From Tenericutes bacterium ADurb.BinA155 (GTDB lineage: Bacteria > Bacillota_I > Bacilli_A > RFN20 > CAG-826), in contig MVZL01000046.1 in NCBI GenBank assembly GCA_002068375.1, positions 1-8,872 of the forward strand: a stretch of 8,872 bases of DNA, given 5' to 3'. The translations under genes and the position numbers were made by a program. Below the pieces are notes generated by a model. It did not search any database, had not been told where the DNA came from, and was given only the letters and a program-made list of their open reading frames with translations. Below, piece after piece: positions 4,842 to 6,815 of this stretch; position 1 is the first letter of the stretch; each line of letters opens with the position of its first letter.

Positions 4842-4852
4842 AGTCGCCGCGA

Positions 4853-4891
4853 AGCTGTTTCCTCGGAACCCAGCTCTAAAAAATCAGGAGG
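4853..4891 (+). promoter_or_regulatory. preQ1-I riboswitch controlling translation of queT
   Basis: Stem P1 is AGCTG (4853-4857) pairing with CAGCT (4871-4875). The 13-nt loop starts TTTCCTC, and the stem is followed by the A-rich tail CTAAAAAATC. This is the compact hairpin-plus-A-tail layout of preQ1-I aptamers. Loop CCTC (4861-4864) can pair with GAGG (4888-4891), or CCT with AGG (4886-4888), forming the pseudoknot. Either pairing buries the AGGAGG ribosome site (4886-4891) of queT. The inference is that preQ1 binding shuts off translation of its own importer. No terminator hairpin lies between aptamer and ATG, which supports translational control. Confidence 0.85.
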
Positions 4892-4898
4892 ACTTCTT

Positions 4899-5402: not shown

Positions 5403-5411
5403 ATCCAACAA

Positions 5412-5450
5412 AAAACGGCATCTTGAATGCTTGATGCCGTTTTGCTTGCT
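5412..5450 (+). terminator. Rho-independent terminator after queT
   Basis: AAAACGGCATC (5412-5422) pairs perfectly with GATGCCGTTTT (5433-5443) around a 10-nt loop, with the T run at the end of the stem. It begins 10 nt after the queT stop. It separates queT from tgt, so tgt must be transcribed from a promoter downstream of it. Confidence 0.85.
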
Positions 5451-5453
5451 GAT

Positions 5454-5555
5454 TTTTCTGTTGTCCGTCAACTACTAGCCGAGACGTCTAGCTTTGATTC
5501 GGGGTTTTCTGCCTCCCGTAGGCTGCTAGCCGAAAGGTCTAGCTTTGGGCCGGAT
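5454..5555 (+). repeat. 51-bp tandem repeat with conserved hairpins
   Basis: Two units at 5454-5504 and 5505-5555 are head to tail with an exact 51-bp period and agree at 36 of 51 positions by my count. Both begin TTTTCTG and share CTAGCCGA and GTCTAGCTTTG. Hairpin A (unit positions 7-19) is GTTG-TCCGT-CAAC in unit 1 (5460-5472) and GCCT-CCCGT-AGGC in unit 2 (5511-5523). Three base pairs differ between copies and all three stay paired. Hairpin B is CTAG...CTAG (5475-5491) and GCTAG-CC-GAAA-GG-T-CTAGC (5525-5543). The pattern fits a structured RNA or a protein-binding site kept under selection. I do not recognise it as a known family. Confidence 0.75.
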
Positions 5556-5603
5556 TGAGGTGTCAGCGCACCAGTTCTTGCGAACTGCATTTCTGTTAGC
5601 GCA
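5454..5603 (+). ncRNA. Candidate structured RNA upstream of tgt
   Basis: The gene-free stretch 5403-5688 (286 nt) holds the queT terminator, the 51-bp tandem repeat, and the perfect hairpin CAGTTC-TTGC-GAACTG (5572-5587). That hairpin is flanked by near-identical copies of TGTYAGCGCA (5561-5570 and 5594-5603), whose GCGC cores can also pair with each other. No coding frame of note is present. If transcribed on the plus strand it could be a tgt leader or a separate small RNA. The tgt promoter predicted at 5652-5680 favours the second reading. I see no convincing promoter between 5444 and 5454. Strand and extent are inference. Confidence 0.35.
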
Positions 5604-5651
5604 AATAAGTGGAACGGAAGGATCGGGTTTCCTTGACGATGCGGCTTCAGT

Positions 5652-5665
5652 TTGCCTTAAGGCAA
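5652..5665. promoter_or_regulatory. Perfect 14-bp palindrome at the tgt -35 box, possible operator
   Basis: TTGCCTTAAGGCAA is fully self-complementary and covers the predicted -35 element. Its position suits a repressor that would control the queuosine operon at transcription. No other copy is visible in the window. Confidence 0.45.
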
Positions 5666-5680
5666 GGAACTCTTTAGAAT
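5652..5680 (+). promoter_or_regulatory. Promoter of tgt-queA-queH operon, leaderless-type
   Basis: TTGCCT (5652-5657) and TAGAAT (5675-5680) are 17 nt apart. The -10 box ends 8 nt before the tgt ATG, so the transcript should begin within about 2 nt of the start codon, and no Shine-Dalgarno is present. The -35 box is the left half of a 14-bp palindrome. Confidence 0.55.
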
Positions 5681-5682
5681 AG

Positions 5683-6815
<1,133 letters not shown>

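Follow-up and report, generated by a model that had tools for sequence, protein, structure and literature searches.

The closest described systems are the type III toxin-antitoxin loci. In PMC5086642, such a locus is described as having a toxin gene downstream of tandem repeats and a Rho-independent terminator, all served by one promoter, and three families, ToxIN, CptIN and TenpIN, are distinguished. The window analyzed here, that is, the whole stretch of 8,872 nucleotides of contig MVZL01000046.1 from Tenericutes bacterium ADurb.BinA155, contains a two-unit array between queT and tgt. At most of the homologous arrays that we found, the neighbouring gene encodes a PBECR4 domain protein (PF18813). 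These PBECR4 loci resemble the type III systems ToxIN (with AbiQ), CptIN and TenpIN (PMC5086642) both in their tandem-repeat RNA with predicted pseudoknots and in the terminator that lies between the RNA and the gene of the (predicted) nuclease. They differ in that the gene is PBECR4, which showed no sequence match to the solved chains of known type III toxins, and in that the loops of the arrays find their best pairing partner in the linker of the opposite unit. The RNA beside PBECR4 has no match in Rfam. The window copy differs further from type III loci in having no toxin gene.

The two-unit element in the window

The gene order in the window is prs, queT, then tgt, queA and queH. Two 51-bp units are arranged head to tail (5454-5504 and 5505-5555); they mismatch at 15 of the 51 positions, and their 43-nt core is 77% identical. 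The original prediction, made from the letters of the window, had described these units, and its description was confirmed on the sequence. In hairpin A, six of the inter-unit differences make up three exchanged base pairs (T-A to C-G, T-A to C-G and G-C to T-A) around a YCCGT loop. The CTAG...CTAG hairpin is present in both units, with a GAAA loop in unit 2, and CTAG is indeed scarce in the window (6 observed versus 16.4 expected), 4 of the 6 copies lying inside the array. The predicted extent stood only in part. The two units were retained, but the whole element is larger, running from about 5587 down to 5410 in the minus-strand sense, its 3' end being the hairpin that had been taken for the queT terminator. 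In this sense each unit reads linker (4 nt), hairpin B, hairpin A and A-rich tail, and the units are numbered in the reverse order of the original prediction (Table 1).

Table 1. Positions of the predicted features of the element and of neighbouring features in the window.
Feature	Position	Strand	Basis or remark
Hairpin D, CAGTTC-GCAA-GAACTG, 5' part of element	5572..5587	-	sequence
Hairpin C, GGTG-CGCTGA-CACC, 5' of first unit	5559..5572	-	alignment
Linker 1 (TCCG), partner of loop 2 at 5464-5467	5551..5554	-	alignment, pairing count
Hairpin B, sense unit 1 (unit 2 of the original prediction)	5525..5543	-	96% of cells paired, double changes at 5/5 pairs
Hairpin A, sense unit 1, GCCT-ACGGG-AGGC	5511..5523	-	loop CGGG (5515-5518) pairs with linker 2
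Linker 2 (CCCG), partner of loop 1	5500..5503	-	alignment, pairing count
Hairpin B, sense unit 2 (unit 1 of the original prediction)	5474..5492	-	88% of cells paired, double changes at 5/5 pairs
Hairpin A, sense unit 2, GTTG-ACGGA-CAAC	5460..5472	-	loop CGGA (5464-5467) pairs with linker 1
A-rich tail AGAAAAATCAGC after array	5448..5459	-	identical 12 bases after the L239 array
Intrinsic-terminator-like hairpin, putative RNA 3' end	5410..5443	-	predicted fold; 11-bp stem 5412-5422/5433-5443, six T (minus)
Whole match of covariance model R3	5449..5571	-	72.8 bits; model built without the window
43-aa open frame across array, probably not a gene	5427..5558	+	P0121: 42/43 residues identical
tgt promoter-like site TTGCCT-17-TAGAAT, not part of element	5652..5680	+	ends 8 nt before tgt ATG

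Hairpin C is paired in 80% of cells in the aligned arrays, with double changes at three of its four pairs, and hairpin D has a counterpart, GTTCG...CGAAC, upstream of the array in the viral contig L239. On the minus strand the outer pair of hairpin B in sense unit 2 is G-U; read on the plus strand, it is A-C. The terminator-like hairpin directly follows the repeats and could also be used by queT on the plus strand; a terminator scan with a loop limit of 8 did not list it, its loop being 10.

The 43-aa frame across the array was rejected as a gene because it starts inside the terminator hairpin with no ribosome-binding site seen, and the coding reading was rejected because the inter-unit differences are distributed 3/6/6 over codon positions 1/2/3 (counted by hand). 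A 54-aa frame on the minus strand was likewise set aside, as no relative was found. A JGI protein (P0121) equals the 43-aa frame with one change, T19M, and at least one other sequence therefore has the element. If T19M is a single-base change, it corresponds to C5485T. The minus-strand sequence GACGT would thereby become GACAT, also found in L339 and in the first L235 array. Unit 2 of the original prediction holds CTGCCTCCCGTAGG at 5509-5522, which is present in three of the seven relatives searched; the copy checked, in L236, lies within 16S rRNA, and the resemblance is probably a coincidence.

A random-substitution simulation gave three compensated pairs in the hairpin A stem in 34 of 300,000 copies (28 kept all four pairs). 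When any 4-bp hairpin was allowed, three compensated pairs arose in 14 of 40,000 copies, and column shuffles gave 21 of 40,000. A chance origin of the compensatory changes in the tandem element is unlikely. The folding-energy z-scores of the window strand (0.27, 0.14 and 0.36) are ordinary, which argues against an unusually stable RNA. The probability of hairpin A was low (0 to 0.25) in single-sequence RNA folding, a method that is blind to loop-linker pseudoknots.

Homologous arrays and the loop-linker pairing

The two window units served to build a covariance model (R1). With stricter filters, it was run on sets of 145, 224 and 279 related genomes, which overlap, and gave three weak matches in coding regions; these lie inside adk, rnhB and dnaE (names read from translations) and were taken as chance. 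Among 395 genomes from the class, one match was found at E<=0.05, in genome G322 (E 8.4e-7, calculated per one genome). Its locus, L235, holds four R1 matches in two arrays with 53-bp spacing. Searches based on L235 matched four plasmid records (three of Pediococcus pentosaceus and one of Ligilactobacillus salivarius) and two Enterococcus phage records, of which one record per organism was examined (L328, L329 and L327). In IMG/VR, 88 stretches were picked out by a pattern scan, and 80 of them were scanned with R1. Among these loci, L239 holds a pair of units at a distance of 51 bp (E 2e-9 and 6e-8). L246 and L255 were weak with R1 (E 0.008 and 0.02) and strong with R3 (52.2 and 76.5 bits), a later model built from nine arrays with the window excluded.

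R3 matched the window on the minus strand with E 7.9e-15 in the 78 kb searched (E-values from both models are rough). On 15 chosen sources it also matched L255, L336, L338, L246, L332 and L334, and weakly L329 (28 bits), with no match at E up to 1 in L330, L331, L342, L344, L242, L248 and L249. On 48 other loci (301 kb, including the tgt loci of relatives), the best match had an E-value of only 0.15. The homologous arrays thus found come from a Bacilli genome, from records of Enterococcus, Pediococcus, Ligilactobacillus and Macrococcoides, and from IMG/VR contigs.

Rfam searches of the window and of 5440-5690, carried down to E 10, returned no relevant family. The suggestion in the original prediction of a new small RNA is upheld to this extent: the predicted RNA is absent from Rfam. 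A search of the 8.9-kb window found no copy of the array beyond the two units. A DNA search with 5444-5690 gave matches at E up to 1 in 70 of 145 relatives; the best (E 0.0057) is a terminator-like hairpin, and the remaining ones were assumed to be chance. A scan of viral contigs with CTAGCCGANANGTCTAG gave 26 stretches, which scored at most 17.8 bits with R1 and mostly matched hairpin B alone; they were taken as chance.

The comparison of 11 arrays showed how the loops and linkers are related. In the second hairpin A, the final four bases of the loop (loop 2) form Watson-Crick pairs with linker 1 at 44 of 44 positions in 7 pairings, and the loop of the first hairpin A (loop 1) does so with linker 2 at 42 of 44 positions in 8 pairings; each score was reached by 0 of 20,000 shuffles. 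Loop-linker pairing inside one and the same unit is poorer (33/44 Watson-Crick for each loop; 40 for loop 1 and 36 for loop 2 when G-U is counted) and was rejected in favour of the cross-unit arrangement, although the own-unit Watson-Crick scores also exceed most shuffles, being reached by 126 and 74 of 20,000. The count covers neither the first L235 array, the isolated or incomplete copies at L329 and L336, nor L246, L255 and L332/L334, whose full matches were found later.

Since the 4-mers in this count were picked by eye with pairing in mind, the analysis was repeated on 10 of the 11 arrays aligned with MAFFT, excluding L338, which has a longer hairpin B. In this alignment 94.1% of 290 cells are paired and double changes occur at 25 of 30 pairs, the consensus structure string having been written from the aligned sequences themselves, which favours its score. 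Four of the five measures were reached by 0 of 500 shuffles and the fifth, which counts types of pair, by 8, and pairing fell to 28-42% when the structure was slid along the alignment. The two hairpins A are paired in 95 and 100% of cells and the two hairpins B in 88 and 96%. The covariance-model search of other genomes that had been proposed for the element thus yielded homologous arrays with conserved pairing, and the view that the element is a selected RNA structure and not a chance repeat is borne out by the simulation and by the covariation in the 10 aligned arrays. The window keeps both cross-unit helices (CGGG/CCCG and CGGA/TCCG), and the T/C difference of its YCCGT loops is compensated in the linkers. 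Because of these loop-linker pairs, the predicted RNA units are pseudoknotted, as in type III systems.

PBECR4 genes beside the arrays

Of the 16 array loci, the window counted, 11 directly precede a PBECR4 gene, in the layout of two repeats, terminator and PBECR4 gene; 7 of these 11 were reached via the protein. Among the seven loci found from the RNA side, the window aside, four have PBECR4 next to the array (Pfam E-values of 7e-30 for L235, 6e-31 for L239, 2e-18 for L327 and 8e-19 for L328). The other three showed no PBECR4 at the locus by Pfam on the neighbour (L329) or by motif (L246 and L255; the L246 stretch ends near the array). L329, L246 and L255 are other possible orphan arrays.

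The protein-side route led from PBECR4 proteins to the upstream DNA. PBECR4-like genes were found in 92 plasmid records, 76 of them from Enterococcus; six records were examined, including one from Enterococcus with an array, together with one phage record and eight viral contigs. After redundancy was taken into account (L337 and L239 are one contig, the L342 protein recurs in L343 and L344, and L332 and L334 are alike), 11 loci were left. In seven of them the array immediately precedes the gene, both lying on one strand (L333, L335, L336 and L338-L341). With L235, L239, L327 and L328, PBECR4 thus lies downstream on the same strand at 11 loci, at L336 by tblastn. At L332/L334, counted as one locus, the array lies 3' of PBECR4 on the opposite strand, and three loci (L330, L331 and L342) have no such array. 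L332 and L334 are Ligilactobacillus salivarius plasmids with the array at 2062-2195 on the minus strand.

Pfam found PBECR4 in 11 of the 12 neighbouring proteins tested, namely ten at array loci and the one at L342; the neighbour in L329 is not PBECR4. On the protein side the Pfam-confirmed loci are L333, L335 and L338-L342, and the assignment rests on record annotation at L330-L332 and L334 and on tblastn alone at L336. Upstream of position 1450 in L342 (and in L343) there is a different two-copy repeat with 78-nt spacing, 24 of 30 bases alike, along with a terminator-like hairpin; it is possibly a second kind of RNA partner for PBECR4.

A terminator-like hairpin was seen just before the array on the TTTTTCTG strand in the window, the second L235 array, L239, L327, L328 and L329, the hairpins at these arrays and partner loci being read by eye. 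Since gene order and terminators at the homologous loci read RNA, terminator, gene, the minus strand is taken as the sense strand. The strand had been left undecided in the original prediction; from the homologous loci, we infer that the array in the window is encoded on the minus strand.

Pfam describes PBECR4 as a predicted nuclease only, and no link to a known type III toxin was found in PDB, PADLOC or NCBIfam. A literature search for PBECR4, whose scope did not extend to preprints and most subscription papers, returned no paper, and a prior description may exist. A search for BECR proteins with RNA antitoxins surfaced one review, on type II systems.

Status of the window copy and its neighbourhood

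Like the partner loci, the window has two units of a predicted small RNA. At the place of the toxin gene it has queT, on the other strand, and not PBECR4. The best minus-strand promoter-like site scored 7/12 versus 8-12/12 at six partner loci, these scores coming from a consensus scan only. Pfam on ten frames and a motif search of the six-frame translation found no PBECR4 in the window. Because no PBECR4 gene was found, the copy is regarded as an orphan, and because no toxin gene lies downstream, it is not classed as a toxin-antitoxin system.

We consider it likely that the window holds an orphan antitoxin-like RNA, two-unit and on the minus strand, from a family often placed before PBECR4, whether this copy is now kept or decaying. 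An antitoxin-like role seems the most likely one for the RNA, since the layout matches that of type III loci. The RNA would consist of 5' hairpins, then linker, hairpin B and hairpin A twice, an A-rich tail and an intrinsic terminator. It would fold into pseudoknotted units held together crosswise, with loop 1 paired to linker 2 and loop 2 to linker 1, and the folded units would bind and block PBECR4, a predicted BECR-fold nuclease, in the manner of a type III antitoxin. By this analogy PBECR4 would be a toxin neutralized by the RNA. We infer that the window copy is, or was, transcribed; the orphan array might be kept as protection against an incoming toxin, or might be decaying. A bolder proposal, which we regard as possible and rather doubtful, is that PBECR4 and the two-unit RNAs form an undescribed fourth type III family, in which two specific loop-linker helices join the repeat units to each other, and that the toxin-free copy in the window provides immunity against toxin-bearing plasmids or phages. 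If the RNA neutralizes PBECR4, a further family would be added to the type III systems. The pairing of loops with linkers would specify, as a simple code, the toxin against which each RNA protects, and orphan arrays would play at the RNA level the part of anti-addiction modules. The pairing model yields exact mutational predictions.

A serious competing explanation, to which we assign somewhat less than an even chance, is that a PBECR4 locus landed between queT and tgt and lost its gene and promoter, leaving a decaying RNA that is now functionless. In the window neither a PBECR4 gene nor a good promoter was found, and further arrays have no PBECR4 match (L329, L246 and L255). The queT-tgt gap of 286 bp was not seen elsewhere. 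Among relatives, 40 of 46 rows have a gap between -3 and 56 bp, each row being queT and tgt in one stretch, with some genomes counted twice; in the other six it is 456-1185 bp, and an open frame lies between the two genes in the five that were opened (L120 representing L172 as well, both from one genome). However, the loop-linker helices, hairpins and terminator of the window copy are intact despite seven differing bases in hairpin A and its loop, although the divergence of the units could predate the gene loss. It is fairly improbable that the array is a cis-acting leader that controls PBECR4 transcription via the terminator, and not an antitoxin. Such a leader would fit the partner loci, where the array is directly followed by a terminator-like hairpin and the gene. 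Two like repeats with cross-unit pairing, however, resemble type III antitoxins, in L332/L334 the array is on the opposite strand, 3' of the gene, and in the window there is no gene for the array to control.

The original prediction had raised control of the queuosine genes as a possibility, on account of the position between queT and tgt, and this idea was not sustained; we regard it as very unlikely. The inferred strand is the minus strand, relatives of the array precede PBECR4 genes (at 11 of the 16 loci), and the array was not found at the queT-tgt place in relatives. It also lies upstream of the tgt promoter-like site, and the model of the preQ1-type queT leader described below gave a best score of only 1.6 bits over 5403-5700 with filters off, so that a preQ1-like origin of the array was rejected. 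Palindromes and tandem copies could further suggest a DNA-level repeat of the REP type, a protein-binding array or a chance tandem duplication. The covariation of loops with linkers, the lack of further copies in the window and the chance simulation make this extremely unlikely, and the dimeric protein-binding array once proposed is not needed. The array is like REP/REPIN repeats in being a short intergenic palindrome and differs in having no further window copies, covarying loop-linker pairs and a gene partner elsewhere. A REP-type repeat is disfavoured; Y1 transposases occur in 6 of 41 relatives, no array copies were found, and the 8.9-kb window holds only the two units. A CsrA-sequestering RNA was rejected since CsrA was found in 0 of 41 relatives, with the control positive in 3 of 14 known genomes. 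A likeness to the STAR elements of S. aureus was also considered, on which a literature search yielded nothing useful, and what we took to be a MetJ box, AGACGTCT, in one unit was dropped because it is absent from the other.

The tgt gene appears to have a promoter of its own downstream of the array. A TANAAT box (-10) ends 5-14 nt before the tgt start in 29 of 46 distinct relative sequences, compared with a mean of 1.1 and a maximum of 5 after shuffling, and tgt may be transcribed without a leader. A perfect 14-bp palindrome, TTGCCTTAAGGCAA, at 5652-5665 covers the -35 of the promoter-like site; it may be an operator or a chance occurrence.

A preQ1 class I-like pseudoknot leader was noticed at 4850-4892 on the plus strand before queT, and also upstream of queT in relatives. 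Its features are UU after the 5' P1 strand, an invariant C before the 3' strand, an A-rich stretch and an AGGA partner. A preQ1 class I riboswitch and the array are alike in being small pseudoknot RNAs adjoining queT; the array differs in having no model match. The leader resembles the type III preQ1-I class, which PMC11625349 places almost exclusively in Pseudomonadota. The Rfam preQ1 models gave no match at the leader of the window (E up to 10) or in six relatives (E up to 1). In 25 sequences, P1 covaries with 98.4% of cells paired, and its covariation score was reached by 0 of 500 shuffles. The window leader scores 51.4 bits with this model, of which it is one of the 25 sequences. The model matches 89 of 224 family genomes, and all 67 of the 67 matches with E up to 1e-5 sit 2-113 bp before a queT match.
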